A DNA stretch of 38,244 bases from a virus. The notes under the pieces are model-generated. The model saw only the letters and a list, made by a program, of their open reading frames with translations, searched no databases and was not told the origin of the DNA. The stretch covers positions 1 to 38,244 of the IMG/VR virus record IMGVR_UViG_3300032304_002234; one strand, 5' to 3'. Below are positions 19,001 through 38,244 of this stretch, piece after piece (the stretch's first letter is position 1; every line of letters starts with the position of its first letter). Made by a program: the position numbers and the translations under genes.

Positions 19001-22000
19001 TATGGGTGTATCGTCGAAGAATGCATAGAATTTACTGTTGGGTTTCAATCCTGTGGCAACGAATACAATGGTGTTGGCTCTGCAGAATGGAGCAACTTGT
19101 TTGTTGACCATTCTGCTAAATACCTGCTGCGATTCTTCAGTCAATACACGAATTGGTCTGCGATCCGCAGCACGCATGGAAGCAATGGTGTTGGCTAGCT
19201 GGTTTTCGTTGGTATTGTTTACTGTTATGGTGCTGTATGAATTGATGCTTTCAAAGATATCAGTATCAGGATACAGCGACAATTTACCCAGATATTCAGC
19301 TTTAAGGAATGGCGCAACCGAAACGCTGGTGGTGGCCAGATCCTGACGCAGGAATGTACTGGTAGTATAGTTCAAGGTTAGTGCGTCACCGGTAATTCTG
19401 TAGTTATCTAAATCACGAGCTGAATTCATGAACTGAAGTTCCAGTCCACTGACTACTGCACCAGTAAAGTTAATCTTTTCGGTCAATACTGTATTGTTGT
19501 AGTTGGCACGTGGATACAATTCCTGCAGCTGTTCGTCTATGGATACTGCACGACTAAATGCAGGATCGGTGTTGCTATTGTCGGTAAAGTTGTCAACAAA
19601 AATACCGGTCTTGTAGCGTTCCAGTGTTGGGTTATTGTTGTCACGTATCTGCAGATTTTTAGTACTGCTTTCCAGTAAGTTCAAGCTGGTTAACTGTTCT
19701 AGATTTTCTACTCGACGTTCAATACCACCGATGTCTTTCATGGTATAGCGTTTATAGTCACGTTTGTCTACATTGACTTCCGGTGACATGGTGTCATAGG
19801 TATAGGGCGCCAGGCTGATAAAGTACAGGGGCAGGGCTTTACCATCGGTTGGTACTTCGGGTGTTTCTGGAGCAAGTCTGCTGCTTGAGCTAATGTTATA
19901 GAATTTACCGGCACGATCTAGCACCACAGCTTCTTTGCGAGCCAGATAAAAGGTTAGATCGGTATCAAAGGTTGTATCATAGCGGGGAACAACTGCATTG
20001 ATTAGACTGTTGTTGGTAGCATCTATCTTGGTACGGAAATCCAGAACGTCACCTAAATTAACTCCAGCAACCTTGGGCACCTTGCCATAGGGAATCTGTG
20101 TAAATGGTTCGTAGCTCTTGATGGTAAAGTAATCACCAGAACCGTGTTCAAAATAATCGAAGAAGATTTTGATGCTGCCATTGGGCAATGGACGGCCCGG
20201 ACGTATGGTCAATTTACCCAGATCATAGAAGGCAGCTGTCTGTCCATTGTCCAGATTATAGTTAGAAGTAACGTCGATGGCTGTAGCCTGTGTACCATCG
20301 GTCCAGGTAGTAACAAATTCTGTGGCCATTAAAATCTTGTTGACTCGCAGTATGTCGGCCTGATTCATGACCAGCTGTGATTTGGTTGCTGAACTGCTGC
20401 TCAGGAACTCCTGGGTTGCATCATAGGTCAGAGTCTTGGTACGATAACCACCCAATAGACTGTTGTCTACCGATGCGTGTCTTACAGGGAAGATAACACG
20501 AGCCGTGGTTCCTGCTATACCTGTAGCCAGGGTTAAACGGAATTGAGTATCACTGATATAGGTTACTGAGTTTACTGTAATCGGTGCGCTCAACGATCCT
20601 ACAGTATCTTCGGCTACCAGGAAATAGGATGCTGTGGTAGTAGCCAGGGTTTCACCACTTAGGTTGGTACCAGGTGCGCCACTCAGGGTTACATTGATGC
20701 TGGTTGTACCTGGACTCAGACCAGTAAGTCTGGATGTTTTATAGACAAAATAGTTGTTGTCAACCATGCTCTCCAGTGCCTTGGCTACTGGGAACACCAG
20801 GGCAGTCTTGTCGGCGCCATAGAGTTTGTTGGTAACACGAATCAAACTCTGTGGAGTTGTGCTGCCGGCAATTGTACCATCCAGACAGATAGCAAAGGCC
20901 ACGCTGTTGCTGCTAATCTTGGTAACATAGAGTTCATTGTTGCCAATGACAATTAAATCGTTGCTGCGCAGATCGGTCTGAAATTTAGCCGCAGCATCAC
21001 CGACAATTCGCATTGCTGTGCCCGAGGTTGCCGAACTGGTACCGCCATTGAAGTCTAGCAACTGCACCAGTCCATCAAGCTTGCGTGTATTGATGCCCAG
21101 AGCATAGTTCTGATATACATTGGCTGCAAAGCTGGCAGTTGTTCCGCTGTAGGGAATGCCATAGACATTGCTGACCAGGGTGCCAGTGCTGGCATTGATC
21201 AGAGTCAAGCTGGTGAACAACGAAGAGGTGGCATTGGCGCCCGCAGTAATGGTCATGCGGTTTTCAGTGGCAATGCTGACAATCCTGGATCTGGCTCCGG
21301 TATTACCAACATAGATTGTGGTTGGGCGAGCAATTTCAGATTGGAATCTAGTGGCTGTTCCTGTACCAATACCAAATATGGTACCTGATGTTAGACGCAC
21401 ATAGGCACTGGTGCCATTGCTAAATTCTGCAATATAGCTGGAAAATTGAGTACGGTCGCCGGCTCCTGGTGCACTAAGATTGGGTGACAATAACTGTGAC
21501 TGTGTACCACGAGCTAGTAAAACAATACCCGAAGTTGCTGGAAGGCTGACGCCTGCTACCAGGCCAGCATTGAAGGCAGCTGCTGCAAAACCAACAATCT
21601 GCAGTCTGGAAGTTGTTGCATCATCACCAGTGCTGTAACCTATGACCATATAGGAGCTGCAATCATTGGCAGTGGAACCTGTACCTGTAAATGGTGCAGC
21701 TGCACGTGCCTGGGCCTGAGCCAAGGTATAACCAGCGTCAGGTACACCGGTAATAGGTTCAACAAATTTAGCACTGGTATTGGTAATGGCACCCGAACTG
21801 TCGCAGAATGCAATGATCGAACCTATGGCTAACTGTGAGCTAAAGGCTGCACTAGCTGGAGCAGAAATTGTGAATATGTTACTGTTACCAACTGGAGTTG
21901 ACGCTACAATTGTTATGCTGGAAATATTGTTTACACCATCCCGTGTCTTCAATGGGCTGTTGTTGACCACGCTGCTCCAGCTTGTAGTCAAATAACGATT

Positions 22001-24010
22001 TTCAGGAATAGCAGTACCACTGACTGTCATGGTAGTATCATTGGTGATGCCAGTAATTACCCAGGAGCTGGTGGCATTACTGCTGGTTGCTATGGTCAGT
22101 GTATCGCCAACTCTGAGCTCTTTGGTGAACGCACTCTGATGTCCAAATACTGTGATGCTGGTAGAAGCTGAAACCTTGGCTGTCAATCCAGTGCTAGCAT
22201 TGTAGTAACGGTCCGCAAAACTTCTCCAGGGTGCGCTTAACCGACTTCCTTTACCAGCAAAATCTGTTAAACTGCTGTCTGAATAACTAAAGGTTGGTGT
22301 GAAGCTGACAGCACCACTGATCTGAACATAACTGCTGGTAACATCGGCACCAACATATTTTAATGCACCACTGAGAGCAAATGCACTCAGGGTTGTGCTG
22401 CTAGCAGGATCGGGAACAACAATGCTGACTACATCGCGCTCAAAACTCTTGCCTGGTTCCATTTTAACTGCGGTCAAACCAATCTTATAGGCACCTGTAG
22501 GATCTGAATCCAGATATACAATGCGGGCACTGCCCATGAGCTCACCATAGCCCAATATGCTATTGCTACCAGCTGGTATGCCGCGATCATATAATAGTGC
22601 AACAGGACCGGTGCTGACATTGGGCATACCTCGAGTCTGTACTGGATCAATCAGCGCATAGTTGCCCAATGATATTGGTATGCTGCGATTGTTCTGTGAT
22701 GCAGTATCACGAGACTTGCTGATTCTTAGTTTTGCGTTGCTGACTTTGTTGATTTCATAGCCCTGAATATAGGCTTTACCAATACCAAAGGCCAGAACTA
22801 ACTCACTGGAGTTACCCAGAGTAGTTGTGCTGGTACCAATGTCATAGATACCACGATTGCTCAGTGGCTCTTCGGTATAGCGCCAGCGCACACTACCATC
22901 AGCCACACTGGTGGTTTCGTCTACAGTAGACATCTCTTCGGGCTGTGTACCAGTACCACTGATGCCAGCCTGGATACAGGTAAAGTAGCGAGTAGTTGTA
23001 CCTGTTAAGACCGAGACATAGTCATCGATTTCATATCTGCTGTTTACATTCCAGGCGCCCCGATTGTTGCTGCGGCTTTCACGTACTTCCATGTTAAAAC
23101 TATCAACAATATAGTTGCCGCTTTCGTCGAAGGTACGACGAGCCAGTGTGTCTTCCAGGATATTGTACTGACTGCTATTGATGATCTGTTGCACTTCACC
23201 TTCTTCGACTCTGATAAGTTCAAAAAAGTTTTCCAGCGTGGCAGTCAATGCTATGCTGGTAAAGGTAGTGGCAATTTTAAATCGGTCTGCGCCGGGCGCA
23301 GCAACGTTGGCTGTACCAGCTGCATTGTCCAGCAAACTCAGATCCATTTCCGATGTAATAATTTCTTCGGTATAGGCAATACCAATTCTGGCATTGATTG
23401 CAGTAACATTGGAGATATATTTTTCAACTACAATTTCTGTGGTTGGTACGCTGACAAAGTATCCGCCCAGATAATAGACACCAGCCTGCTGTGCAGCAAC
23501 CGCACTACGACCAGTAACGCCTTCACCACCCTGTACTGTGACAGTAGCAGTTAAATTTTCCTTGACATACAAGGTGGCATTGGCCAAGAACAAAGTCTCG
23601 TCATTGCCAAAGGCATCCTGGTTCGCTGATTTGTATAATACAATCAGTGTAATAGGATCGGTGTCGGTAGCCTCTACTACCTTGAATACCGACGCTTCGA
23701 CCGCGGCATCATCGCCAGTTGACGACGTGGTAAGTATTTTACCTTCCAGATAGGTCAATGGTTCAATGCCCAGATTGATGGCAGCAATTTTCACAAAGTT
23801 GGCTCGACTATTATAGTTGACCTGACCAGGTATAACCATGCTGCCGTCTTTGAACACATGATTACCAAACTTGGTGATCTGATTCTGTAGTATGCTCTGC
23901 AGCTGATTAACCTCACGGGTTTGTACGGCTACTCCGGGTTTAAACAGTACCTTGTAGAACTGTTTATCCTCATCAAAATCGTCAAAATATGGTGACTGGT
24001 TGAAATCCAT
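16079..24010 (-). CDS. 2643-aa DUF4815-type virion structural protein
   Basis: The N-terminus (MDFNQSPYFDDFDEDKQFYK, then VLFKPGVAVQTREVNQLQSI) is the hallmark of the DUF4815 family of large baseplate or fibre proteins in T4-like phages. Further landmarks follow the family: GLKPNSKFYAFFDD near residue 1670, DPLAQSFKI with TDVDVFFHTKP near 1980, WVATLGQTDVF near 2080, and LLGSLFKSQEGTLWTEDQLS with DMKFVLNRAVF near 2110. Between about 560 and 1150 are several related beta-modules (for example VFGHQSAFTKELRVGDTLTI), probably a family-specific expansion. The C-terminus (VPRFKNLRLIAHA) is also typical. It is presumed to be part of the baseplate periphery or the proximal fibre; that is inferred from size, family and position after gp8. 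The ATG has AAGG eight bases upstream and an AATAAATA about 30 bases upstream. The stop overlaps the coiled-coil gene by 8 bases. Confidence 0.82.
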   Translation of the reverse strand: MDFNQSPYFDDFDEDKQFYKVLFKPGVAVQTREVNQLQSILQNQITKFGNHVFKDGSMVIPGQVNYNSRANFVKIAAINLGIEPLTYLEGKILTTSSTGDDAAVEASVFKVVEATDTDPITLIVLYKSANQDAFGNDETLFLANATLYVKENLTATVTVQGGEGVTGRSAVAAQQAGVYYLGGYFVSVPTTEIVVEKYISNVTAINARIGIAYTEEIITSEMDLSLLDNAAGTANVAAPGADRFKIATTFTSIALTATLENFFELIRVEEGEVQQIINSSQYNILEDTLARRTFDESGNYIVDSFNMEVRESRSNNRGAWNVNSRYEIDDYVSVLTGTTTRYFTCIQAGISGTGTQPEEMSTVDETTSVADGSVRWRYTEEPLSNRGIYDIGTSTTTLGNSSELVLAFGIGKAYIQGYEINKVSNAKLRISKSRDTASQNNRSIPISLGNYALIDPVQTRGMPNVSTGPVALLYDRGIPAGSNSILGYGELMGSARIVYLDSDPTGAYKIGLTAVKMEPGKSFERDVVSIVVPDPASSTTLSAFALSGALKYVGADVTSSYVQISGAVSFTPTFSYSDSSLTDFAGKGSRLSAPWRSFADRYYNASTGLTAKVSASTSITVFGHQSAFTKELRVGDTLTIATSSNATSSWVITGITNDTTMTVSGTAIPENRYLTTSWSSVVNNSPLKTRDGVNNISSITIVASTPVGNSNIFTISAPASAAFSSQLAIGSIIAFCDSSGAITNTSAKFVEPITGVPDAGYTLAQAQARAAAPFTGTGSTANDCSSYMVIGYSTGDDATTSRLQIVGFAAAAFNAGLVAGVSLPATSGIVLLARGTQSQLLSPNLSAPGAGDRTQFSSYIAEFSNGTSAYVRLTSGTIFGIGTGTATRFQSEIARPTTIYVGNTGARSRIVSIATENRMTITAGANATSSLFTSLTLINASTGTLVSNVYGIPYSGTTASFAANVYQNYALGINTRKLDGLVQLLDFNGGTSSATSGTAMRIVGDAAAKFQTDLRSNDLIVIGNNELYVTKISSNSVAFAICLDGTIAGSTTPQSLIRVTNKLYGADKTALVFPVAKALESMVDNNYFVYKTSRLTGLSPGTTSINVTLSGAPGTNLSGETLATTTASYFLVAEDTVGSLSAPITVNSVTYISDTQFRLTLATGIAGTTARVIFPVRHASVDNSLLGGYRTKTLTYDATQEFLSSSSATKSQLVMNQADILRVNKILMATEFVTTWTDGTQATAIDVTSNYNLDNGQTAAFYDLGKLTIRPGRPLPNGSIKIFFDYFEHGSGDYFTIKSYEPFTQIPYGKVPKVAGVNLGDVLDFRTKIDATNNSLINAVVPRYDTTFDTDLTFYLARKEAVVLDRAGKFYNISSSSRLAPETPEVPTDGKALPLYFISLAPYTYDTMSPEVNVDKRDYKRYTMKDIGGIERRVENLEQLTSLNLLESSTKNLQIRDNNNPTLERYKTGIFVDNFTDNSNTDPAFSRAVSIDEQLQELYPRANYNNTVLTEKINFTGAVVSGLELQFMNSARDLDNYRITGDALTLNYTTSTFLRQDLATTSVSVAPFLKAEYLGKLSLYPDTDIFESINSYSTITVNNTNENQLANTIASMRAADRRPIRVLTEESQQVFSRMVNKQVAPFCRANTIVFVATGLKPNSKFYAFFDDTPIGEYLTPALKLTFNEMPTLLFNTMRADPGNWAKWRGRNENKHVQEQYQIPADAGVRGGVLQPNVFTRPRTITETVAQSVRVGGGKNARWETRYVAVQRTITEYFQNVQEKRSFSTRGDAYQLSLPSAGRSEEYMKAFTAGVAVYYYGSGRYLGSAVAMYQKDKTLYLVNQRGQLSPAYIRSGTNVGGKRSRTLDQTFYVAVDQNDPKTLVNTTVDDSQIMGDSSGVLYTDKDGVLVAMFDLPDTDTDKFLCGTKPIMLTTSPINDPDDWDSRVEATYTARGFQFELQTTITNTKTFIPQFYDPLAQSFKIPDQFTNGLFITDVDVFFHTKPLGSERGVPVDFEMRLCDAGGRPGPSPIPGTAQIKFPDEVNADPTGQTPTKFTLRQPLYLAPNINYAIMLRSESVRYRAWVATLGQTDVFNPSRTYSIQALLGSLFKSQEGTLWTEDQLSDMKFVLNRAVFNTNSQAVCRVVNAKRPASGLPVNPFVMTHGSNKIRVRHDNHGHAPGDTVRYTSAYWLAQYAAGNTTATINGIPITELFGTGIDNDIVRDSDAKLTISTTDTIDFDGYVIQTNTVANLGAGAVTGVTSVVAGGNDIMATSNWLYHAITPTAKTLNFSPTTLTFEAEQTAGFTYDGADLPATTGKPYTRSTQALTFNTTNFLTAPKIVLSDVNEFYRAADNQQVAGGQAPTNWKESFTGKFTLTSTDPAVSPLVDLSSLNMQLGQYRIDNPSRDTRLPTTLPAVGTAATGSILNVDYEAVTVNNTTIAFDGIAESLISTTPDLFTSITPGQYIVVSGSSVAGNNSTSTGVRVVDVSQDGTILYLDANFTTQAAGQSISIYQIRDFIDERCLVGSTAASKYVVRRINLENPASSIKLLADANVPSEASFEIYYKVGNANSDLEGQVWNKYLPTLNIVREDDRNIFSEIEIDITDTDAAGNPLDLPEFTAFTIKIVMLTTNGARVPRFKNLRLIAHA

Positions 24011-25496: not shown

Positions 25497-28400
25497 TTAT
25501 GCAGCGCCCAGAACTGTTATATTTACAAAATCTGACGTAGTGCTGTTCCACTGATAGCCTGCGGGCACCGAAACTGAAATATTAACGGAGCTATCTCCAC
25601 GTGATTCAAATCTGGCGCTGAGTCGGTCATAAACGCCCGAACGGTTTGCATTGAATGGAATCCAGGTCCAGACGACCTGACTTGTTGTATCGCCGCTGTT
25701 TACTACATTGGTGCTGCTAATGGTGTTGCTGCTGTGTACATAGAATGTATTGGAATATAGCAGGGTCTGCCCAACAGCCACATCCTTGTAGTTCTGTTGA
25801 ATTTCGTTGTCATATAAGACACGGAAAGTACCAGCTGAGGATACTGAAACAGTAAATCTGTTGTTGCCTTCTTGTGAATTGAAGGTAAAATCCTTCATCC
25901 AGGTCAGCAACAAGACCAGGCTGCTGGCTGCGTTGACTGCAATACTGGTGCTTAACACTACTGTATTGGCTGTCAGGGTCAGTGTATAACTGCTGCTGTG
26001 ATACAGAGTGCGGAATGTTGTAAAGTCCACGTCATTGCCCTGTGTTACCAGACTATCGTCAACACCAATGATCGAACCTGCTTTATCAAAACTGGCACTG
26101 TCAGGTGCACCAATGACACGGGGCAGAGGATAATCTCGGCGATAGACATAGCTGATTGCTGATGTTGCAGCAAATGATTCAGTTATAGGCCCACCGACTA
26201 CTATTAAACTTGTATCGTTAATGATGCTGGTAATGGCAAAACTTGTATTTCCAATCTGCAGGAAGCCGTAGCGGAAGTCTGGTGTACGACCTGTTTCAGT
26301 TACCTCTTCGATGGTAACGCCGGCGCTGGTTGCTGTACCTGTGGTAATCTGTGGCAGGAATAGAGTGCTAATACCAGTAACCGAAATGTTGCTGCTATAG
26401 CTAGGGAAATACATGGTCAGGCCAGTATCATAGAAATTTCTAAGTATGGCACTGCCTGTGACCAATATAGTAGTATCATCAACAATCGATACCACTGTAT
26501 AACTACTGTTTCCAATTACCAGTCTTGTTCCTGGAACATTGCCTTTGTTAATGCCTAGATTGTCAATACCAGGAATACCATTGGTCAACCATAGTGTATT
26601 GGATGTCAATAAACTAGCATCATGATATCCACTGACTAAAAATCCCGACGTTCTGGAATTTTCGTATCTGGCAAATGTTGCGGTTTTTCCGGTAAAGTTT
26701 GCATAGACGCCACCACCAGATACTGTCATGTTACTGCTGGTATTAATACCAGTTAAAACAAATCTGCGATCTGCTGTAGCAGTTAAACCATTAACTAATG
26801 AGATTGAAACCGAACTATTTCCTGTTGCAGTCACAAGAGTTAAACTATTATTGTTATTAACCGTTACAATATTAAATGCACGTGATGCTGTTGAAATACT
26901 GCTGGTATTATTTCCCCAGTATTTAATTGATGTACTAGTCCAAGGTTGAGTTACTGAGGCATTAAATTGATCGGTTATAGAACTAATAGTGCGTGTTTCT
27001 ACAATGTATGCATTAACAGGACCAGCACCTTTAAAATATCCTCCAGGAGTAACACTGTCATAGATATTGGTATATCCTGTGTTTGCAATACTTGTAGTTG
27101 CCTGTAATACCAATGTAAAATCGCCTTGTTGGCCTCTAATCTTAGGATCTGAAGCCACAACATAATCTACATTGATGTTGGTTACAGTTCCAGCTGCATT
27201 GATATAAGGATGTGTGATCCGCACTATACTACCACTGCCAATTTCATCGCGTAATCTTGCAGTAGATCCCGATGATTGATTGCCGTAATTACTATAATAT
27301 GGTAGCCATTGATCCAATGTTAGAATTGTTGGATCCCAGGGTCGTAATCGTACTGTATTTATACTGAAGAAGCCGGAAGTAGCAAGGTAACCAGTTGGAT
27401 ATGCACGTGTAGAAAATTCTGTAATTAAATATTCACTGAGTCTGGCATTAGACGTTGTTTGTGCAGTATATCCGACCTGATATACCAACCAGGTAAGTTT
27501 AAATGGAACATCAATTTTTGGTATGGATTCAGATTTAGCGATAGCGCCTGATTCCGCCATTGTTTTTCCATAAACATAGATACCATTGTCACCGGTATAT
27601 GGAGTTGAAGATTTATAAAAATTCTTGGATTCCCAGGCATCAATAGTATTGTTAGTAACTGGATCAAACAATAGCCCACTGGGGTGTGCAGGTGCCCCAC
27701 CTGCAAACCAGATATTGGTAAGTTTAGTCCAACCAGCAGAAGTTGGAGTTTCCCCTGGAGCTGGTGGTACAGGATTTTCCGATAAACTATAATATAGTTC
27801 TAAATTTTGACCACCAGTTAGCGAATTGAGGTCATTGGTATATGATCCACTGATGTAACCATTGATCCTGCAGGCATGTAGTGTGCCAAATGTTGGTGTA
27901 GCCATGAACCAACGGCCATGTGTAGTTACACTGCTGCCATAGCTAAACAAATACCCATATCTGGTCACAGTGGCAGTACTAGAAGTATACAATAGACCAG
28001 TATTACTGGTACCATAGGATAGATCTGGCGAAGCCATGTATCCACCAGGAGGTATGGTTACTATACTTGATGTAAAAACTACGCAGGTAGGATTTGGATT
28101 AGGGATACTGACCGTAGCTCTAAATCCATCCCGTGGCCAACGAGAAATCACACCCAGAGAGGTTACCTCCAAAGCTGTAGTTGCACCTACTATGGTACCC
28201 AGCGCACTCCAATACATTGGGTTGTTTGTATATACCGATCCCTGTGTTCCTTGTTCTGCTTCTACGTTACCCAATCTAAACAACATGCTGGTAGAACTTG
28301 ACAAATTGTAGGTTGATACAATAGCAGATACTGCAGGAACTAAACTTTGTACATATCTTTGAGTATACGAAGACTCCTTGGATTCAAAATATCCTAGTGC

Positions 28401-31400
28401 TGGATTAAACACTACATAATTTATTATAGATGCTGTTTGATAGCCGGCTATTAAATCACCGTTGCGATTTGCAAAATATGTATAATATGTTTTACTAGAT
28501 CTAAATGCTGGATTATCACTCCAACTACCACCAGTAGCACCAGTGTCTGCAGCATAGTTCAATGTAATACCAGTAGAAGAATTCTCATAGAAAGTCATTT
28601 CCCACTGCTGACGTTTACCTGAATATCTGGTTATGTCACTGCTGGCTGTTGAGAATGTAATTTGTTCGGATGTAGAATTAACATTGTTGGCATAGGTACC
28701 CGATGAACTAAAGTATGGCGCTAGTAGATACTGTTTTGATTCCTGATATGCCACACCATCTGGTCCTACTTTCCACAGCGGTACATTGACAAAATTCCAG
28801 CTGGCCAAGCTAAATTGTTGCTGATATGGTGATATTGCTCCATGCAGGGTTACCGATGAAAGATAGGCTTCATTGAAACTTATTTCCCAACCCTGTGCTC
28901 GATTATCAGGAGAGTTACTATAAAATCCACCTTCCCAACGCACAGTAAATATTCGACTGGTTGTGAGAGCACTGCCAGCACTTACACCATAGTATACACG
29001 ATTACCAAATCTGGCATTAACTTGTACTGCAGTCCAAGGTGAATACGCTGGTCCGTCGGGCTGCGATTCTGATATATACATGGGTTCAATTCTGGGCAAC
29101 ACTGGTTGACTGTAGAACAGGCCATTGCTGGTTGTTACATTGGTGGTAATTGTGTAGCCGCTGCCGTCTTTCCAGTCACCCAAACTTACCCGCCCATGGT
29201 GTGAAATAAACAACTGATTATACGATGTAGTAAAGAAGTTAAATGACCAGGGCAGTGTTATCTGCCAGTAACCATTGGATACTGTTCCACTGGTTGGAGT
29301 AGTTGATACTGTGAGGCCTGCACCAGTGGTTAAAATATTAAAGTTTTGACCATAGATTGCATTAGGACCAGCTCCAAATGCAGCAACACCATAGGCAACC
29401 CAATCATTCTCTGAGGGATACTCATACCAACCATCGTAGTAAATTTTAAAATATCGATTAGGTGTAACACCAAAAGATTGATAGTATAAATTTTTTAGTT
29501 TATTGTTCCAGTATGGATTAACATAGATTCTAGGAACGGCTGGCTGGAATGATGATACAGTACCAGTAGTATTGGTTGTGCCATAGGCAGCAATGCTGGT
29601 ATCAAAAGCCACCAAACCAGTGCTATGCACATAGATTTTAGTTGTTGATGTGTCTAAAAAATAAATAGGAAACGGTACCTGCAGATCATAGCGAGCCCAC
29701 AATGCAGGATCTGTGTATTGACTCAGACTTGGTTCCTGTGATCTAGAGCTACCAACTGAACTTACTGTAGTTAAACTACTGCCAACAATGTTATAAGTTG
29801 GGTCAAGAGTTTCAAATCTGGTAATTAAATAACTGCTGCTTATAGCGGGTAAACTGCTGACCTGAACCAAGCGTCCTGATAATTCTTTGATTACTTTGAT
29901 GTTACCACCAACATACAATGAATTTAACTGACCATATTCATCATAGATGCTGGTAGATCCAGAAGTAAATACAATATTGGCTGGAAATGGAACATCGTTA
30001 ATTACAATTCTAGGCGTTGCTTGACCTGGAAATATAATAGGTCGATCAGTTTCATTGCTAACACCAGAGCTGGTATCGCCACCGGTTACCAATAAGTCAG
30101 ACAGGAATGCTGTACCTGCACCTGATGCATAGTAATAATAGTTGGGCGCGACCGGCGTTTGTGTTGGTAATGTTATTGTACCGGTAATAGCCAAATCATT
30201 GATGGTTACAACTGAGCTATAGTATGCATAGATTGGATTGTTGAAGGCATCAACTGTACCAGTATAATATCGCCAGATATTTCCCAGGGGCATTTCTGTG
30301 TTAAAATACGTTCCTGTACCTGTTATAACCATTTCACCACCCAAAGGCTGGGAAATACCACTGATGGTTCCTGTTATGCTGGTCACAGGCATGGTATAGC
30401 TGACGCTGTCGCGATTGATTGCAGTATTACCCGTGGTAGCAGCTGCACTAACTGTGCCAGTTATACTGGTAAAAGTAAATGATTCAACATAGCTGCGAAT
30501 ATTGTCTGCAGCATTCTGCAGAGCAAAAGTAATGTTTTCGCCACCATAGACAAAGTCTGCAGTATAGCTAACTATGCCGGCACTGGTGGTTTCGCTGGTA
30601 CCAGTTTTAAAGTTGGCCAGACGATCAAAGGAATAGCCAGGCTGAATAATAAAGTCGTCGGATGTTGCAAATCTTACTTCGGTACTGATGGCATTACTCT
30701 GCGCAAAGGTTGTGGCAACTGCACTGACTGCCACACTGGCATCATTGTCCAGTAAAATTTCACCGAACAGATTTCTACCGCTAGGGTGCAGCTGTTCTAG
30801 AACAGCGTCTTTCCAGCGATCCAGGGTAATACGAGTTTTAATAACATAGCTAAATCTCTGCCAGTAGATACTGTCCTGTATGACCTGATCCGAACTAAGC
30901 TGACTGCGTGTGCCACGTTGTGTACCAGCAGCCACATTGACTGCTGCAGTATTCTGTACTACAATCTGACTGCTGATACTGGTGGTAGCAGTATGCACCC
31001 AGTAGGTACCAGTAATGGTTTCTGAGCTGGAGAATGTACCACTGAGACTGCGATTCTGTACAGTCAGATCCCAAAGACCGTAGTTTTGAACAGCGTGTTC
31101 AATGATGGCTGTGGCAAAACTGCTGGTACCCTGCACAGTAACATGTTCCAGATTTCTGGGATTGCCAGTAACGGCTCGTACACGCAGAGTCTTTTCGACA
31201 TACCAATCACCGCCGCTGGTACGGAACAGACTGTCGCCCGGCAATTTAACAGTGATATCATCGTCAAAGAAGGCCCGGAAAAAGAATTCAAAGCTCTTGA
31301 GGCTGCCCTTGCTGCGATAGAAGTCACGGAAATTTTTAACCAGTACTGAGCGATTCAGAGCCGAAGTCTGTGGCAGGTTGGGAGCATAGGTATTGACAAA

Positions 31401-31598
31401 CTTGGTGGCCAGACTGCTGGCCGTGGTATCGATGTCGGCATTGAGCTGAATGTTCTGTATAATTTCCTGGGGATTGCCGCCCTGTTCTAACCACTCATAG
31501 TATTTGGTAACGAAGATAACAAAGATAGGATAATACTCCTGAACATATTCAGGTATCTGATTATCCAGAAAGTCTGTTATTTTTTTATCTAAGCTCAT
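25497..31598 (-). CDS. 2033-aa baseplate protein in gp7 position (possible wedge initiator)
   Basis: The N-terminal 135 residues are the recognisable part: FLDNQIPEYVQEYYPIFVIF, VTKYYEWLEQGG, then LVKNFRDFYRSKGSLKSFEF and FFRAFFDDD. This is an opening I know from a large structural protein next to gp6 in T4-like marine phages. By position between gp6 and gp8 it is the likely counterpart of T4 gp7 (1032 residues), but no direct gp7 similarity was seen, so this is inference. The rest is modular: two tandem beta-domains near residues 630-735 and 780-905 (KIYVHSTGLVAF and QLFISHHGRVSLGD, a NIDO-like pattern), a long unrecognised middle, two tandem modules at about 1665-1825 (GNSSYTVVSIVDDTTILV and GNTSFAITSIINDTSLIV), and a beta-rich C-terminus. 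The ATG overlaps the gp6 stop as ATGA, with AGGA eight bases upstream. Parts of the middle are notably AT-rich. Confidence 0.72.
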   Translation of the reverse strand: MSLDKKITDFLDNQIPEYVQEYYPIFVIFVTKYYEWLEQGGNPQEIIQNIQLNADIDTTASSLATKFVNTYAPNLPQTSALNRSVLVKNFRDFYRSKGSLKSFEFFFRAFFDDDITVKLPGDSLFRTSGGDWYVEKTLRVRAVTGNPRNLEHVTVQGTSSFATAIIEHAVQNYGLWDLTVQNRSLSGTFSSSETITGTYWVHTATTSISSQIVVQNTAAVNVAAGTQRGTRSQLSSDQVIQDSIYWQRFSYVIKTRITLDRWKDAVLEQLHPSGRNLFGEILLDNDASVAVSAVATTFAQSNAISTEVRFATSDDFIIQPGYSFDRLANFKTGTSETTSAGIVSYTADFVYGGENITFALQNAADNIRSYVESFTFTSITGTVSAAATTGNTAINRDSVSYTMPVTSITGTISGISQPLGGEMVITGTGTYFNTEMPLGNIWRYYTGTVDAFNNPIYAYYSSVVTINDLAITGTITLPTQTPVAPNYYYYASGAGTAFLSDLLVTGGDTSSGVSNETDRPIIFPGQATPRIVINDVPFPANIVFTSGSTSIYDEYGQLNSLYVGGNIKVIKELSGRLVQVSSLPAISSSYLITRFETLDPTYNIVGSSLTTVSSVGSSRSQEPSLSQYTDPALWARYDLQVPFPIYFLDTSTTKIYVHSTGLVAFDTSIAAYGTTNTTGTVSSFQPAVPRIYVNPYWNNKLKNLYYQSFGVTPNRYFKIYYDGWYEYPSENDWVAYGVAAFGAGPNAIYGQNFNILTTGAGLTVSTTPTSGTVSNGYWQITLPWSFNFFTTSYNQLFISHHGRVSLGDWKDGSGYTITTNVTTSNGLFYSQPVLPRIEPMYISESQPDGPAYSPWTAVQVNARFGNRVYYGVSAGSALTTSRIFTVRWEGGFYSNSPDNRAQGWEISFNEAYLSSVTLHGAISPYQQQFSLASWNFVNVPLWKVGPDGVAYQESKQYLLAPYFSSSGTYANNVNSTSEQITFSTASSDITRYSGKRQQWEMTFYENSSTGITLNYAADTGATGGSWSDNPAFRSSKTYYTYFANRNGDLIAGYQTASIINYVVFNPALGYFESKESSYTQRYVQSLVPAVSAIVSTYNLSSSTSMLFRLGNVEAEQGTQGSVYTNNPMYWSALGTIVGATTALEVTSLGVISRWPRDGFRATVSIPNPNPTCVVFTSSIVTIPPGGYMASPDLSYGTSNTGLLYTSSTATVTRYGYLFSYGSSVTTHGRWFMATPTFGTLHACRINGYISGSYTNDLNSLTGGQNLELYYSLSENPVPPAPGETPTSAGWTKLTNIWFAGGAPAHPSGLLFDPVTNNTIDAWESKNFYKSSTPYTGDNGIYVYGKTMAESGAIAKSESIPKIDVPFKLTWLVYQVGYTAQTTSNARLSEYLITEFSTRAYPTGYLATSGFFSINTVRLRPWDPTILTLDQWLPYYSNYGNQSSGSTARLRDEIGSGSIVRITHPYINAAGTVTNINVDYVVASDPKIRGQQGDFTLVLQATTSIANTGYTNIYDSVTPGGYFKGAGPVNAYIVETRTISSITDQFNASVTQPWTSTSIKYWGNNTSSISTASRAFNIVTVNNNNSLTLVTATGNSSVSISLVNGLTATADRRFVLTGINTSSNMTVSGGGVYANFTGKTATFARYENSRTSGFLVSGYHDASLLTSNTLWLTNGIPGIDNLGINKGNVPGTRLVIGNSSYTVVSIVDDTTILVTGSAILRNFYDTGLTMYFPSYSSNISVTGISTLFLPQITTGTATSAGVTIEEVTETGRTPDFRYGFLQIGNTSFAITSIINDTSLIVVGGPITESFAATSAISYVYRRDYPLPRVIGAPDSASFDKAGSIIGVDDSLVTQGNDVDFTTFRTLYHSSSYTLTLTANTVVLSTSIAVNAASSLVLLLTWMKDFTFNSQEGNNRFTVSVSSAGTFRVLYDNEIQQNYKDVAVGQTLLYSNTFYVHSSNTISSTNVVNSGDTTSQVVWTWIPFNANRSGVYDRLSARFESRGDSSVNISVSVPAGYQWNSTTSDFVNITVLGAA

Positions 31599-33442
31599 GT
31601 ATTGGTTCCTACTGTTACGATATTGATGCCATTTTCGTTTCCGCTAATGACATCAGATGTGGAATCATCTAGCAGCAAAATTTCATTGTAGCCTGGTGTA
31701 AAATCCAGACTGTCGGACTGTACTCGAGCATTGATTCTAACGTCGGTAATGTTACCAACATAGCCTGTGATGGTCAATAAATTAATCATTACTTCGCCGG
31801 TCAGATAATTTACTGTGCCCAGGTTATTATTTAGGACACCACTGTTGGCTAAATCATAGAGTTTAAGGGTGCCAGTACCAGCATAGTCTGCGGGTGCTGT
31901 ATCTGCAACATCTCGAATCTGTACTGTATAGGTGCCTGTGGTGTCGGCATAGATAAACTTGGTGCTGAACAATTCGCCAGGATGTAGTCTGGCTGGGAAT
32001 ATTATGCTGCCAGTAAACTGATTGATACCCAGATTGGGTACAATACGTTTCTGCAGATACTGAGACATGATAACACTTAGCACGCTGTCGTCTACATCCA
32101 TGAGCTGTTCCTGCAGCTGACTGGCATAGAACTTCTTGTTGAATTCTCTGAGATTGGTATCAATAAAATTGGTAATCTTGGTATTGATCAGCGAACTAAT
32201 CTGCTGAGCAGTACGATTGGTTCGGGCAGTGCTATAGGTTGCATTGACATCAAATTTTAAATAGGTAAAGGTTGGGTCTACAAATTCATGACGCACAGTT
32301 ACCAGGCTGCGGGGCTGTAGTATGTCCCGCACAATTCTGGTTTTTTCATCGTCGGTTAATATGTAACCAGTCTTGGGAGCTATGCTGATGTACACCACAC
32401 CATATTCGGGTGGGTTATTTTTTTCACCACCCCAGATGTTCACTGAACGAGCTGCTGGCAAATTGGCACTTATTAAACTGGCATAGTCACGTTCAGTGAC
32501 TGCCCGATTCTGTGTGACATAGGTATTGAGTGCATTGAATTTAATTTCGTCTGCCGTCTCTTTGACAGCACCACCACTGGGTTTGATCTTGGCTGTAATT
32601 GCACGATCGCCGCTAGCCTCGCCAAACAGACTGGCTGTAGTCCAGCTTACTGGAACATTGGTGCTGACATTGCCATTGGCACCGTTGCCCAACAGATAGC
32701 TCATTTTAACTATGTCACCGGCCGCTAAATTACGACCCAGTACGCCATCACCAAAATAGATCTGATAGAAGCCTTCGGTATTTTCTTCCAGATAGTACAC
32801 AGCACTGTTACCATCGATGTTTACAATGTTAGCAACCTCGGTAAAACTTTGACTGAAACTACTTGTTCCTGAATACTGTACCGACACCTGCAGAGTGCGA
32901 GTGTCCACACCCTGATTGGGAATTACATACTTGGTGGCTGGCGTTGAGCCTGCACCAACAGTATAATAGTAGTCTAACTTTCTGCCTTCGTAGACTTTGA
33001 CATCTCTGAAGGTATAAACACCGTTCACAGGACTGGCAACATAGCTTTCAATGTTGTAGAAAGTAAACGGCGTACCGTCTATATTAGTATTGAATGTCTG
33101 ATAACGATCCAGGGTAACTACTGTGGGATTGCCTGGTACCGACTGTAGTGCAATATCAATCGTGGCCTCTGCACTGTAGGCTGAGCGCGGAGTATAGCTC
33201 AGGTGCTTGGCCAGACTAGCCACACTTGAACGTTTCAAGGCTGTGTCAATAAACATCTCATTGGTGACCATGTTGGCCAACACAGCATTGTAGTGTGTGT
33301 TATAGGCCAGTATGTCCAGCAGCACGCTCAGGTTACTAGCATCAAAATCATAGTCTGTGAATTCTGTCTGATCTCTGAGGAAGTCCTTGAGATTGGTTTT
33401 GATGGTATCAAAATCTAGTTCGGTTACTCTGATGTTGGCCAT
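31595..33442 (-). CDS. gp6: gp6-like baseplate wedge subunit
   Basis: 615 residues; T4 gp6 has 660. The N-terminus (IRVTELDFDTIKTNLKDFLR, YDFDASNLSVLLDILAYNTH, YNAVLANMVTNEMFIDTALK) is diagnostic of the gp6/J-like wedge proteins of contractile tails. The middle has the expected strand with GFYQIYFGDGVLG and then TADEIKFNALNTYVTQNRAV followed by TERDYASLI. In T4, gp6 dimers form the ring that holds the wedges together around the hub and pass the contraction signal to the sheath. The start overlaps the gp25 stop as TAATG and its own stop overlaps the 2033-aa gene start, so gp25, gp6 and the large wedge protein should be made in coupled fashion. No insertion is evident; this is among the most standard genes here. 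Confidence 0.93.
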   Translation of the reverse strand: MANIRVTELDFDTIKTNLKDFLRDQTEFTDYDFDASNLSVLLDILAYNTHYNAVLANMVTNEMFIDTALKRSSVASLAKHLSYTPRSAYSAEATIDIALQSVPGNPTVVTLDRYQTFNTNIDGTPFTFYNIESYVASPVNGVYTFRDVKVYEGRKLDYYYTVGAGSTPATKYVIPNQGVDTRTLQVSVQYSGTSSFSQSFTEVANIVNIDGNSAVYYLEENTEGFYQIYFGDGVLGRNLAAGDIVKMSYLLGNGANGNVSTNVPVSWTTASLFGEASGDRAITAKIKPSGGAVKETADEIKFNALNTYVTQNRAVTERDYASLISANLPAARSVNIWGGEKNNPPEYGVVYISIAPKTGYILTDDEKTRIVRDILQPRSLVTVRHEFVDPTFTYLKFDVNATYSTARTNRTAQQISSLINTKITNFIDTNLREFNKKFYASQLQEQLMDVDDSVLSVIMSQYLQKRIVPNLGINQFTGSIIFPARLHPGELFSTKFIYADTTGTYTVQIRDVADTAPADYAGTGTLKLYDLANSGVLNNNLGTVNYLTGEVMINLLTITGYVGNITDVRINARVQSDSLDFTPGYNEILLLDDSTSDVISGNENGINIVTVGTNT

Positions 33443-33831
33443 TATCGTACTCGGGTAAATGTGGTGGTGAATACCGAAGGAGTTTCGGTGTTACGTATTT
33501 TATAGACAATCTCTATGAACATTTCATTGTTATCGTTCATGCTGACCTGTACATCCTGCACCTGTACACGGGGCTCAAATTTAACTATGGCATCGCGTAT
33601 TACACGCTGTGCTATACTCATGGTCAGTGGGTCGCCTAGTTCAAACAGCAGATTGTGAATCTGACAGCCCAGCTCGGGCTGAAATGGTCGATCATAGTGC
33701 TTGGTATGAATCAGATTGCGAAGTGCGCCCCTGATGGCGTTGTCGTCGAATTTGGCAGCGACGTCGCGTGTGCGCGGGCTGCGTGTGAATGCAGCATCTA
33801 GGTCTGAGTATGTGCGATTAGCTCTGGTCAT
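33442..33831 (-). CDS. gp25: gp25-like baseplate wedge protein
   Basis: 129 residues from the ATG at 33831; T4 gp25 has 132. An in-frame extension of 50 residues upstream is possible but is an Arg/Ser-rich shadow of the PAAR gene, so I reject it. The core DNAIRGALRNLIHTKHYDRP, then FQPELGCQIHNLLFEL and VIRDAIVKFEPRVQVQDVQV, is the gp25/GPW family pattern, including the P-F-P-G--I---LFE signature. In contractile machines this protein sits beside gp6 and starts sheath polymerisation at the baseplate. The ATG has GGAGG about 12 bases upstream, inside the end of the PAAR gene. The gene starts 8 bases after the PAAR stop and overlaps gp6 by one base. Confidence 0.92.
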   Translation of the reverse strand: MTRANRTYSDLDAAFTRSPRTRDVAAKFDDNAIRGALRNLIHTKHYDRPFQPELGCQIHNLLFELGDPLTMSIAQRVIRDAIVKFEPRVQVQDVQVSMNDNNEMFIEIVYKIRNTETPSVFTTTFTRVR

Positions 33832-33839
33832 GTTATTAT

Positions 33840-34130
33840 TTAGCCTCCGCAGAAGACGTTGCTTGAACCTTCTGCAACTGATGTACAACCTGTGATGGGA
33901 TCGCCGATGCGACCTGCTGCTTTGCCATTGACTCGAACTGAACTGCTGCCACTGGCTATGGGTGCCTGATGTGCTGGACAAGGAACACCAGGCAGCACGT
34001 GTGTTGTATTTAAATCACCAACACGACTCCAGGCCTTGCCGTTGACACGTACATTGGCGCTGCCCTGAGCGCGATAGGGTACTGAACAATGAACTACGTC
34101 GGCATCACCGACTCTGGCGACTGCGGGCAC
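33840..34130 (-). CDS. PAAR-domain spike tip protein (gp5.4-like), GTG start
   Basis: 96 residues with the PAAR layout: VARVGDADVVHC at the N-terminus, NVRVNGKAWSRVGDLNTTH in the middle, and SVRVNGKAAGRIGDPITGC near the end. Two internal V-VNGK-A-R-GD repeats are visible. His14, His44, His54 and Cys82 are candidate zinc ligands; the family binds one zinc with three His and one Cys. PAAR proteins form the sharp conical tip on the gp5/VgrG-type spike and pierce the outer membrane first. The start is GTG at 34130, with GGAG about nine bases upstream, and it overlaps the end of the 70-aa gene by 26 bases. Its place two genes after the spike gene fits a tip role. Confidence 0.9.
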   Translation of the reverse strand: MPAVARVGDADVVHCSVPYRAQGSANVRVNGKAWSRVGDLNTTHVLPGVPCPAHQAPIASGSSSVRVNGKAAGRIGDPITGCTSVAEGSSNVFCGG

Positions 34131-34317
34131 GTTCTATCTCCATTAATTGTTGTAGTTTTTCATTCCAGCCTTCAATTTGATCATGTTCATCTTCGGTATG
34201 CGGACCTGCAGGTATGTCAGGCACAAACTTGATGACATGATCAAAGTCTGTAGGAATGTCTTCGTAGTTCGTATAGGTCTGCAGTTTACCTGCTCGCATT
34301 ACTGTGAACTCAGCCAT
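34105..34317 (-). CDS. 70-aa conserved small protein between spike and PAAR genes
   Basis: The sequence contains AEFTVMRAGKLQTYTNYEDI, then PTDFDHVIKFVPDIPAGPHT followed by EDEHDQIEGWNEKLQQLME. A TY--YE-IP-D-DHVI-F-PD-P-GPHTE--H--IE-WN-KL--LM pattern is one I associate with a small uncharacterised protein at this place in T4-like marine phages. The N-terminal half looks like a small beta-hairpin unit and the C-terminal 25 residues form a charged helix ending in an Arg-rich tail. There is no known enzymatic motif. It shares one base with the spike stop (TAATG) and overlaps the PAAR gene by 26 bases, so the three products are likely made together. A role in spike/PAAR assembly is plausible but unproved. 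Confidence 0.75.
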   Translation of the reverse strand: MAEFTVMRAGKLQTYTNYEDIPTDFDHVIKFVPDIPAGPHTEDEHDQIEGWNEKLQQLMEIERARSRQSR

Positions 34318-37079
34318 TATTTGCTTAGATCACAGAGGAAGGTTTTCTTGATACCGTCGGGTCCAACTGCTACTGCATGATCCATGAAGGTGGCTACCTT
34401 GGGAAAAGCACTGCCAACTGCGCGATTGCCTGCAGGATTAAAGCTCACATGAATCCAGCTGGTAAAGCCGCCCTTGCCATGATAGTATTCTAACAGTAAC
34501 TGATCATAGGCTATGTTGTCACGTATCCAGAGTGCGATGTCATAGTGTTGTTGTATGTTACCAAAGCTTAGATCTACTGCCTGACCGATCAGATGCTGAC
34601 TCTTGGCAGAACCGCCTGAAGGTACATCAAATCTTAGCAGACTATTCATCTGCATGTTGGGATACTTGGCCTTGATTGGGTCCAGCACATTGACAGACAG
34701 TCCACGCAGGTTGTCCATGATCTGTGATTTGGTCAGACCAGCGTGCGTTGTGCGATTGGAGTTGCCCCAGAAGTCACGATTTTTAGCTGCACTTTCACTG
34801 CCTACATTGGCCAGGTCACCGAGTTTGAAACTGCGGCTCAATTGAATAGTATAGGGGAATTCACGATAGCTGCTAAACTCACCCATCTTGTACGGTGTAG
34901 GAGGAACAATGGCCGGAGGTCTGGTATCCGATCTCTTGCAACCAGCTGCCGAGGTTGCCTTACCGGCTTCGATGTCTGCAGGATTGCGTTTACCGTTGGC
35001 CACATCATTTTGTTGCTTGTTGGGATCTTCGCCACCGTCGTTGCCACCCTGGAATTCAGTGTCGGGATCACAGCCTACTCGAGTCAGTGGCGTAATAACA
35101 TTGTTGATGGGCGACGCAGTTTCCAAGGCACTTAGTCCCGATGCTGTAGCCGATCCAGCTACACCATCATTTAAGTCTATGGTAGATCCATCCAGTCCCA
35201 TGGCACCTGCAGATTTTATGTTCATGGTGCCGCCAGCCTGAGCATACATACTACCGCCGGCCTTTAAATGCAGGTTATTAGTGGCTTCCATGTAGATGTT
35301 GCTGGCACGAGCTTTAAGATCGCCAGCCACGTTGATGTTGGCATTGTTCTTAACATTGATGGTAGTTGTTCCCCAGACTTCCATGTCCAGGGTATCCCGA
35401 CTTAGTATGCGGGTAGCACCATCTACAGTAACATCGTATTCGCCTTTGATGTAGACCTTGTTGTTGCGAACATACACACCATAGGCATCACCCTGTACAT
35501 GCTGATGAAATGTACCATGCTGATCCATTTCCACAAATGTGCCAGTGCGATGATACAGATGCAGACGTTCACGCTGCGGTGTATCATCCATTTCAATGAC
35601 ATGACCACTCTCACTTTCTACCACATGATTGAATGGATAGCGAGCGCAGTAGGCTGCCTCGGGCTCATCCCAGCTACCATTGTTGGCAGTAGCCACGCCT
35701 GTGATCCTCTGCTCTGATTTGACCTGTATGATGGTGCCCGACGTATCGCCCGTGGCCAGCTTGTTGGTGTCTGGACGATCCTGATAATCACATCGTGGAT
35801 AGGCACTGTTGGGATCGGCAAATGGCGGAGGATTGCCCAGCTTGGGGTCATTCAAGATTTCTGTGGCTGGTGTGGAATTAGGATTGGGCTGATTGGTGTT
35901 GGCTCCTGGAGTAGATGTACCAACACCAGGAGCAGTTGTACCAGCAATACGATCACCGCCGGGCGTACCAGGAACCCAGTCAGCAGCAAATTTGGCCACC
36001 TTGTTCAACTGTTCCTGTCCTATGCTGCCCTTTTTGCGTATGTCGCCACCAACAACTATGCTGGTTACTAGTATGTTGCTGTCGTTCTGTGTACCACCTG
36101 GATAGTTGATGCCTGTGTTGCTGGTGGCTCTGCTTAAATTGGTCTTTAAAAACCAGGCAGCAATTTCGGCTGCAGTTTCAGGTTGATTGGCCAAGTCTGG
36201 ATTGGTTACTAATCGATCGTCGCTGTAGATTTCCTTGCTGGCCGCAGCATAGTTATACTTGCCAGTGATCTGAATAAATCCACGACCACGATACTTGTAG
36301 CCATCGCCAGCACTGATGTTGCCCAGACTACGTCCAGTTGTAGTACTTGCGCCATAGATGACTTCCGCAAACGTCGCTGTACTGGCCTTGACTGCTGTAA
36401 TCTGTGCGTCTGATAGTGCAGCAACCCGATCGCCAAACACTGTGCGAATTCTTTCGTTGCTGGTATTGGAATAGGAACTTAGATCCTCGGACTTGGTTTT
36501 ACCACCACATTCTTTTTCTACATTGCCTATGACAGCTGCTAAAAATTTACCATCGGTTAATCCACGCTTTTTACAGGCAGCTACAATTAAATCATAGTTG
36601 GTGTTCTTTTCCTGATTTTGTGGTGTTGGTGATTCTGTGCTGGTGGACGCTGTTACTGGATTGCCTGCACTATCTTTGACTACATTGCCTGAACTGTCCT
36701 TGATTACGCCGGGCTGATTGCCAGCTGCAGCTGCTTCTTGTGCGCCACAGGCACGTGAACGATCAGGCAAACCGCCTATGGTTCCCATCATCATGGGCTG
36801 TTGTTTGTCCTTGCCGTCGGCAAAGAAGCCTATGACCCAGCTGCCTTCTAGTGGACCTACCGGCGAACTTCCTTTGCCGCTGATGCCTGCCGACGTTATT
36901 GGCTGCATGGCCATGGCCCAGGGCAGATCCGAAGTAGGCAGGACCTCTTTGTTGTCCAGATGATAGCCCAGTATGCGTACACGACAACGACCAACCTTCA
37001 AGGGATCGTTGCGGTCTTCAACAACACCAATCCACCAGAAGAATCCGTCTTCTCCAAAAATATTAGTTATGGCGCTCAT
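34317..37079 (-). CDS. gp5: gp5-like central spike with GH19-like and M15-like hydrolase domains
   Basis: 920 residues; T4 gp5 has 575. Residues 1-105 form the N-terminal OB fold (WWIGVVEDRNDPLKVGRCRV, GSWVIGFFADGKDKQQPMMM). Residues about 160-375 look like a GH19 chitinase/lysozyme domain: GNVEKECGG holds the candidate catalytic Glu near 187-189, followed by GYKYRGRGFIQITGKYNY near 258-276. Residues about 475-635 are the repetitive triple-stranded beta-helix of the spike (HVIEMDDTPQRERLHLYHRT, then NINVAGDLKARASNIYMEAT). Residues about 790-893 resemble an M15 peptidase: SQHLIGQAVDLS near 826-838 and WIHVSF near 875-880 supply the His/Asp and His zinc-binding pattern. T4 gp5 has a different (GH24) lysozyme in this position. 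The spike would puncture the envelope and open the murein layer. The ATG overlaps the hub stop as ATGA. Confidence 0.9.
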   Translation of the reverse strand: MSAITNIFGEDGFFWWIGVVEDRNDPLKVGRCRVRILGYHLDNKEVLPTSDLPWAMAMQPITSAGISGKGSSPVGPLEGSWVIGFFADGKDKQQPMMMGTIGGLPDRSRACGAQEAAAAGNQPGVIKDSSGNVVKDSAGNPVTASTSTESPTPQNQEKNTNYDLIVAACKKRGLTDGKFLAAVIGNVEKECGGKTKSEDLSSYSNTSNERIRTVFGDRVAALSDAQITAVKASTATFAEVIYGASTTTGRSLGNISAGDGYKYRGRGFIQITGKYNYAAASKEIYSDDRLVTNPDLANQPETAAEIAAWFLKTNLSRATSNTGINYPGGTQNDSNILVTSIVVGGDIRKKGSIGQEQLNKVAKFAADWVPGTPGGDRIAGTTAPGVGTSTPGANTNQPNPNSTPATEILNDPKLGNPPPFADPNSAYPRCDYQDRPDTNKLATGDTSGTIIQVKSEQRITGVATANNGSWDEPEAAYCARYPFNHVVESESGHVIEMDDTPQRERLHLYHRTGTFVEMDQHGTFHQHVQGDAYGVYVRNNKVYIKGEYDVTVDGATRILSRDTLDMEVWGTTTINVKNNANINVAGDLKARASNIYMEATNNLHLKAGGSMYAQAGGTMNIKSAGAMGLDGSTIDLNDGVAGSATASGLSALETASPINNVITPLTRVGCDPDTEFQGGNDGGEDPNKQQNDVANGKRNPADIEAGKATSAAGCKRSDTRPPAIVPPTPYKMGEFSSYREFPYTIQLSRSFKLGDLANVGSESAAKNRDFWGNSNRTTHAGLTKSQIMDNLRGLSVNVLDPIKAKYPNMQMNSLLRFDVPSGGSAKSQHLIGQAVDLSFGNIQQHYDIALWIRDNIAYDQLLLEYYHGKGGFTSWIHVSFNPAGNRAVGSAFPKVATFMDHAVAVGPDGIKKTFLCDLSK

Positions 37080-38244
37080 GCTGTATTCCCTTGTGTATCT
37101 CGGTAGCTTTCCTTGACAATCTCCATGATCATCATGTGCTTGATTAGTGTAACTTTATGACGTATGGCAGTAATTAAATAGTAGCCACTGAACAGCGGAT
37201 CTTCACCGGTTTGTGTCTTGTCTGTTTCATCTTTGGGAGCTGCATCTGGATAGCTCAGGTAAATAACATTGCCTACCTCGGCATCGGTTCTGCCTGGTAC
37301 GGTAATGATCAACTTAAAATTACCCAACTCCTGCAGCACACTGACACGCTGTGGCAGAGTCTTTTCAATGATGTCGCTGACATTGGCAGGAGCATTGTTG
37401 AACAGATTTTCGTGTCTGGGATAGAAGTGAACATAGCTGGCTGGTGCGCGCAAGGCATCATCATTGAATGGAGCTTTACTGCTGCCTGCAATATCTTCCA
37501 GATGTTTGTAGTCCTTGTAGTTGGCTACATGATCATAGTCGAAGGTCTCATACTTCTTGGTCAGCAGATCCAGAGTAATCAATCTGTTGGCATAGTAACC
37601 GTTCTGTGTATTCTTAAATCCATTGAAGGTTTCCACAATCTCCAGATCTTCTACCTTCTTATAATCGTTGTCGATGTCACGCACATAACGACCATCGGCA
37701 CTTTCACCGGTAATTTTATTGGCCATGTTGATGTAGTCACGATAGATCTGTTTAGTGGTTACTGCATTGTCTATGATGGCTTCCATGTTGGCAAAGTAAT
37801 AGCCCTGAGTAGTCTCATAGAACAGAAAGCTCGGACTCTTGTAGGCTCGGGTGGTGGCACGAGCTGCCAACCAGTTTAAACAGTGCATAGGATGCCAGCC
37901 TGGACTGGTGAATGTGACTTCATTGTCAGGATCGCCGATAACAACCAGAGGACTTTCATCGCCAGCCTCACCAGTATTTCTGGGTATGGCCAGATTCTCG
38001 GTATAGATTTTACTGATCACCTCAATCATCGGCCCTTTGAAGGTTCGATACACTGGCGCCAGCATGTCAATGAACAATTCGGTTGAACAGAAGTGCAGGA
38101 TATAGCTCTGCATGCCTGTATCCCGCAACATCATGCGATTGGTAATGCTGTAGACTTTGAAGGTCTTGTAGATATGCTGCAGCAGGGTCGGCGTCTTGAT
38201 CTTTAGGCGTATGTATTCATCGCCAATAATAGGAAACTTACCCA
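37076..38244 (-). CDS. gp27: Partial gp27-like baseplate hub protein
   Basis: The frame is open through the right edge, so the N-terminus is missing; at least 388 residues are seen. T4 gp27 has 391, so the whole protein is probably somewhat longer. Visible landmarks are GDEYIRLKIKTP, IYKTFKVYSITNR, LHFCSTELFIDMLAPVYRTF, then FTSPGWHPMHCLNWLAARAT and FLFYETTQGYYFANMEAIID. These follow the hub proteins of contractile tails (gp27/gp44 type), where a trimer forms the platform that holds the gp5 spike and matches the tail tube. An ATG at 38134 is internal to conserved sequence and is not the real start. The position directly before the spike gene, with ATGA overlap, agrees with a hub-spike pair. 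Confidence 0.8.
   Translation of the reverse strand, partial: GKFPIIGDEYIRLKIKTPTLLQHIYKTFKVYSITNRMMLRDTGMQSYILHFCSTELFIDMLAPVYRTFKGPMIEVISKIYTENLAIPRNTGEAGDESPLVVIGDPDNEVTFTSPGWHPMHCLNWLAARATTRAYKSPSFLFYETTQGYYFANMEAIIDNAVTTKQIYRDYINMANKITGESADGRYVRDIDNDYKKVEDLEIVETFNGFKNTQNGYYANRLITLDLLTKKYETFDYDHVANYKDYKHLEDIAGSSKAPFNDDALRAPASYVHFYPRHENLFNNAPANVSDIIEKTLPQRVSVLQELGNFKLIITVPGRTDAEVGNVIYLSYPDAAPKDETDKTQTGEDPLFSGYYLITAIRHKVTLIKHMMIMEIVKESYRDTQGNTA

Follow-up and report, generated by a model that had tools for sequence, protein, structure and literature searches.

The gene at 34317..37079 of the window (the whole 38,244-base virus contig of IMG/VR record IMGVR_UViG_3300032304_002234) raises the question of how one phage spike protein could bear two different cell-wall hydrolases, one of them beyond the needle tip where a PAAR cap should bind. 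The features of the window for which positions are given here lie on the minus strand. The ORF encodes 920 aa, and its start overlaps by four bases the upstream gene for a baseplate hub/tail protein in the gp27 position (37076..38242; phrog_350, 2e-63), the 5' end of which is cut by the window. In the order of transcription, hub protein and spike are followed by a 70-aa protein (34105..34317; phrog_24555, 4e-11), a separate 96-aa PAAR spike-tip protein (33840..34130; PF05488, 2.9e-12), and the baseplate wedge proteins gp25 (33442..33831, with the start taken at an internal ATG; PF04965, 2.1e-16) and gp6 (31595..33442; phrog_219, 1.7e-153). The phrog_24555 protein is conserved and is also present in locus L002, which contains the spike relative discussed below. 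Other products of the window are head-completion, tail-sheath-stabilizer, wedge, and very long proteins, the last from three ORFs in the structural region (6791-15511, 16079-24010, and 25497-31598; 2906, 2643, and 2033 aa). Judged by gp6, the nearest cultured relatives are HTVC008M, Mosig, Melnitz, and BUCT-ZZ01.

By homology, the product belongs to the T4 gp5-type central spikes and comes from a T4-superfamily myophage. T4 gp5 is its best PDB match by sequence (phmmer, 3.3e-34) and also ranks first in a Foldseek search with the full-length model (6e-12), ahead of GH19 endolysins and the T6SS muramidase TseP; this model is a monomer with a pLDDT of 70 overall, about 85 in the GH19 domain, and poor values in the OB domain and the tip. 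The spike further matches the PHROG gp5 families 430, 694, and 1922, while NCBIfam and PADLOC searches gave no match. Its domains are an OB fold (residues 1-107; 36759..37079), a GH19 domain (158-375), a beta-helix (462-637), a linker of about 104 residues, and an M15 domain (742-905). The OB fold was recognized by Gp5_OB (PF06714, 3e-17), a profile that also matched 35/35 members of A3, and together with the T4 gp5 alignments this bears out the preliminary description, according to which the OB fold and beta-helix of a gp5-like spike had been retained. With T4 gp5 (PDB 1k28) the protein shares the OB fold, a hydrolase in the middle, the triple beta-helix, a PAAR-type cap encoded by a separate gene (gp5.4 in T4), and the hub operon. 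A chimeric or mis-assembled gene was considered and ruled out by full-length relatives on independent contigs, which have 85% identity to the spike in locus L002 and 56-61% in loci L013-L015. These relatives were recovered independently; the gene is intact and its layout no artefact.

One difference from T4 lies in the middle slot, where T4 has a GH24 lysozyme and the window spike a predicted GH19 muramidase-like domain (35955..36608). This region matches the GH19 profile PF00182 (Glyco_hydro_19) at 1.3e-6 with 28.9 bits, above the Pfam cut-off of 25.5, as well as PHROG endolysin family 181, and phmmer against the PDB retrieves the GH19 endolysins 7r6s (7e-12) and SPN1S 4ok7 (1.3e-10); 8p8e is a further match. 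The predicted structure is all-alpha (pLDDT about 85) and leads in Foldseek to GH19 endolysins and TseP. E190 (codon 36510..36512) aligns with the catalytic Glu in the HESGGF motif of the SPN1S endolysin. E198 (codon 36486..36488), the predicted second catalytic Glu, pairs with the second SPN1S Glu only after a one-residue gap, as the loop is one residue shorter than in SPN1S. We take the counterparts of both residues to be the catalytic residues of the SPN1S endolysin. Both are conserved in 42/42 GH19 rows of an alignment in which seed rows are counted twice. In TseP, the catalytic pair of the muramidase is E654/E663 (PMC11893102). The earlier proposal that a GH19-like domain replaces the T4 lysozyme is thus upheld by both the profile search and the catalytic Glu residues.

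The second putative enzyme is the C-terminal M15-type zinc peptidase domain (34365..34856). An M15-like peptidase beyond the helix had been proposed before, and its position and family stand; its extent does not, because the domain covers about residues 742-905 and is larger than the 790-893 suggested. Profile searches gave a divided picture. Peptidase_M15_3 (PF08291) stays below its cut-off of 23.2 on the window spike (E 0.0086, 16.6 bits) and reaches 5.9e-10 on the best relative, whereas residues 742-885 match PHROG 894, labelled endolysin, at 1e-12, and an HMM built solely from six stand-alone, endolysin-type phage M15 proteins finds the domain at E=1.8e-19 with the database size set to one million. 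Because this lysin-only HMM finds the window domain, its M15 membership is free of circular profiles. The M15-type zinc site, a His and an Asp seven residues apart plus a second His, is represented by H829 (34593..34595), D836 (34572..34574), and H877 (34449..34451), which are predicted ligands by homology, and E864 (34488..34490) is the predicted general base. R816, H829, and D836 are invariant in 154/154 M15 rows, and E864, W875, and H877 in 151/151, with seed rows counted twice as in the GH19 alignment. For both domains, therefore, matches are significant and the catalytic residues have not been replaced.

The fold of the C-terminal domain permits another interpretation. In a Foldseek search with the domain model (pLDDT 94.3), the top 36 PDB matches are Hedgehog N-domains without exception, although weak ones (TM 0.33, E 4e-3); a profile search of the PDB with the M15 alignment found only Hedgehogs, and a single-sequence PDB search with the domain gave no match. 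Hedgehog domains share the zinc-site fold, but to our knowledge there are no active peptidases among them, and the M15 fold alone is therefore no proof of activity. With Hedgehogs as the closest solved folds and profile matches, the domain might have kept the fold and the zinc site without being a peptidase and bind murein or a surface ligand instead. We consider this improbable, as R816, E864, and W875 are invariant along with the three zinc ligands. Moreover, a tree built from 96 M15 domains has an outgroup (support 100) of stand-alone peptidases, and this sister clade comprises small phage proteins, several of which are annotated as endolysin or peptidase M15. The very low dN/dS of the M15 domain also speaks against a mere binding role. 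Between the window and L002, dN/dS was 0.031 for M15, 0.039 for OB, and 0.134 for GH19, values that are rough because synonymous sites are close to saturation. Both active sites of the spike are intact and under purifying selection, and a peptidase remains the preferred reading of the C-terminal domain. Homology to endolysins lends good support to murein as the predicted target of both GH19 and M15.

A peptidase at the tip end had appeared puzzling, since it would lie where the PAAR cap should bind. The predicted triple-stranded beta-helix, or needle (35169..35696), was delineated by T4 gp5 alignments and a custom HMM. Spike residues 470-586 align to T4 gp5 376-492 with 46.9 bits, and residues 539-637 to T4 gp5 477-575 with 9.9 bits, which is weak alone; in this second alignment, residues 636-637 pair with T4 574-575. 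T4 gp5 ends at the helix tip. Because its last residues align at 636-637, the needle of the window spike appears complete and the 283 residues beyond it an addition, and for the same reason the PAAR-binding tip should be complete. Thus, the spike exceeds the T4 protein by about 280 residues that contain the M15 peptidase, preceded by a linker (residues 638-741; 34857..35168) modelled in low-confidence stretches. The complete helix tip, the long linker, the PAAR gene only 187 bases downstream of the spike gene, and PAAR-M15 fusions in other phages, which would bring the peptidase to this very position (see below), resolve most of the puzzle. Natural tip fusions in T6SS make it likely that a C-terminal M15 domain can coexist with PAAR on the needle, yet a VgrG with an artificial fusion at its tip, although secreted, was only inefficiently injected, with weakened PAAR binding as a possible cause (PMC7043769).

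The predicted two-enzyme spike is common to dozens of mostly uncultured phages. Two scans of IMG/VR recovered at least 570 and at least 521 confirmed relatives, and domains were surveyed in 160 kept IMG/VR loci, the window, and phage records. In this set, the order OB-GH19-helix-M15 occurs in at least 35 ORFs, corresponding to at least about 32 IMG/VR contigs once the window, BUCT-ZZ01, and one duplicate contig are subtracted. The spike has matches in 2,728 records of cultured phages, of which a single one, from Synechococcus phage BUCT-ZZ01, covers 80% or more of it. Its protein (UTS51949.1, 939 aa) has the same four domains on one chain and is divergent in sequence (32% identity over 97%); its record label is only gp5-like baseplate hub subunit. 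The M15 domain is matched by 83 records of cultured phages. It resides on gp5 in Cr30, pf16, Melnitz, and BUCT-ZZ01, and on PAAR in Vibrio phage 1.244.A and the Pseudomonas phages Milchi, Aura, and PA5oct; the other matches are stand-alone peptidases or endolysins. Caulobacter phage Cr30 resembles the window in the OB fold, middle hydrolase, helix, M15 domain, and adjoining PAAR gene of its gp5 locus, but has Phage_lysozyme2 instead of GH19 in the middle slot. Other M15-bearing spikes of the survey set have a VgrG3-like (at least 21), GH24 (at least 12), VanY-like (at least seven), split-gene GH19 (at least four), or Phage_lysozyme2 domain (at least two) in this place, and in at least 27 no middle hydrolase was found; in some cases two genes encode the spike, one for OB and the hydrolase and another for helix and M15. 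Mapped by parsimony on the M15 tree, the content of the middle slot switched nine times or more, although strongly supported branches force few of these changes. Across the relatives, M15 at the tip stays constant while the middle slot varies. As a separate observation, the two-gene spike of Acinetobacter phage nACB2 (L011:3965-6360), in which the OB part carries CHAP and the helix is preceded by a GH19-like domain, is another two-hydrolase spike.

Many relatives of 510-715 aa carry M15 without a detectable middle hydrolase, and in the window spike GH19 shows quicker evolution than the remaining folded domains. Both observations would fit a spike in which one domain alone matters for entry while its partner is a passenger on the way to being lost. 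This seems unlikely to us, given that both active sites are intact in all relatives carrying them and that dN/dS of GH19 is still about 0.13.

The peptidase is not bound to one carrier. The six PAAR-M15 rows and two gp5-M15 rows group together in the M15 tree (support 99) within the spike clade. In 5/5 loci where profiles detected a PAAR-M15 ORF and an OB ORF, gp5 stops at the helix; in Aura, which has M15 on PAAR, it likewise ends there, and none of the loci surveyed contained both gp5-M15 and PAAR-M15. M15 has moved between gp5 and PAAR. In Pseudomonas phage PA5oct, the PAAR-M15 fusion (L010:4425-5447) is located directly behind ribonucleotide reductase genes. Solo genes with a spike-clade M15 domain (L129:4425-5420, L121:4470-5498, and L114:4485-5393; 300-343 aa) have an N-terminal part of about 150 residues with a VFANG-like motif, and those in L129 and L121 come after ribonucleotide reductase genes, outside the hub operon. 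This N-terminal part, compared to PAAR in hhalign, gave a probability of 48.5%, and it is possible that the solo genes carry a degenerate PAAR half.

The endolysin label of PHROG 894 might also indicate that M15 acts at lysis rather than entry, after being freed from gp5 by proteolysis. The genomic setting makes this very unlikely: in almost every single-chain relative whose sequence leaves room for the neighbouring genes, M15 is fused to the needle or PAAR beside gp25 and gp6. Where single-chain loci extend far enough downstream (40 loci), gp25 lies within 3 kb downstream in 37, and a separate PAAR ORF is found in at least 19. The record of the fused PA5oct homologue, furthermore, carries an ESI-MS/MS (mass spectrometry) note.

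The model for entry is T4, where the gp5-gp5.4 needle is forced across the outer membrane as the sheath contracts and the gp5 lysozyme helps in murein passage (PMC7600766). The evolved VgrG/PAAR effectors of T6SS (VgrG3, VgrG2b) share with the window protein a gp5-like architecture in which a fused enzyme follows the beta-helix, and the metallopeptidase domain of VgrG2b has VgrG or PAAR as its carrier depending on the species (PMC6899460). However, these effectors belong to secretion systems, the VgrG2b peptidase is of another, HEXXH family, and T6SS VgrG effectors are not known to have a second hydrolase between OB and helix. Two phage OB genes (L054:5001-6083 and L071:5001-6236) encode a VgrG3-like C-terminal domain (PF21277, 1.7e-49 and 2e-24); judged by these profile matches, phage spikes and T6SS share hydrolase cargo. 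Phi29 gp13 and TseP resemble the proposed window spike as murein hydrolases that a phage tail tip or spike complex brings into the cell wall. For TseP, amidase as well as lysozyme activity is proven, and its muramidase domain structurally matches the spike GH19. Neither is a gp5 spike, and the peptide cutter is M23 in gp13 and a zinc amidase in TseP. The second domain of gp13 is lysozyme-like.

We therefore regard it as quite probable that the protein is a cell-puncturing T4-type spike with two murein hydrolases for entry, GH19 at the base and M15 beyond the tip. The domains, intact active sites, selection, synteny, and change of carrier are established above; enzyme activities, bond specificity, order of action, and co-assembly with PAAR are what we infer. 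As in T4, three spike chains would assemble into a trimer seated on the gp27-like hub, and upon sheath contraction the PAAR-capped needle would cross the outer membrane. The M15 domains, at the front on flexible linkers, could then cut stem peptides or cross-links, before the GH19 domains around the needle base cut glycan strands and the tail tube passes through the widened hole. Based on the 3:1 stoichiometry of T4, a gp5 carrier would provide three M15 copies per spike and a PAAR carrier one. The middle slot would accept different glycan or peptide hydrolases depending on the phage, with the tip M15 as the conserved payload. With slightly better than even confidence, we extend this to a modular two-stage murein breacher in a large, mostly uncultured T4-like clade, in which M15 hops between gp5 and PAAR, the base hydrolase is exchangeable, and the whole would be the phage counterpart of the T6SS specialized effectors.

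In the literature searched, which was largely outside subscription journals, no paper on gp5-M15 or phage PAAR-M15 was found; the Melnitz paper mentions T4-like structural genes and does not mention gp5, PAAR, or a peptidase. The recurrent two-enzyme architecture is thus apparently undescribed in this literature, although each component and the fusion principle are already known. It went unnoticed because public records say only "tail lysozyme," "baseplate hub subunit," "endolysin," or "PAAR." The architecture shows that phage spikes, like T6SS spikes, bear interchangeable enzyme cargo at the tip. Cr30 (Caulobacter), BUCT-ZZ01 (Synechococcus), and pf16 (Pseudomonas putida) offer testable cases for whether peptide cutting, glycan cutting, or both are needed for entry, and the same phages allow one to ask how a C-terminal extension coexists with PAAR.
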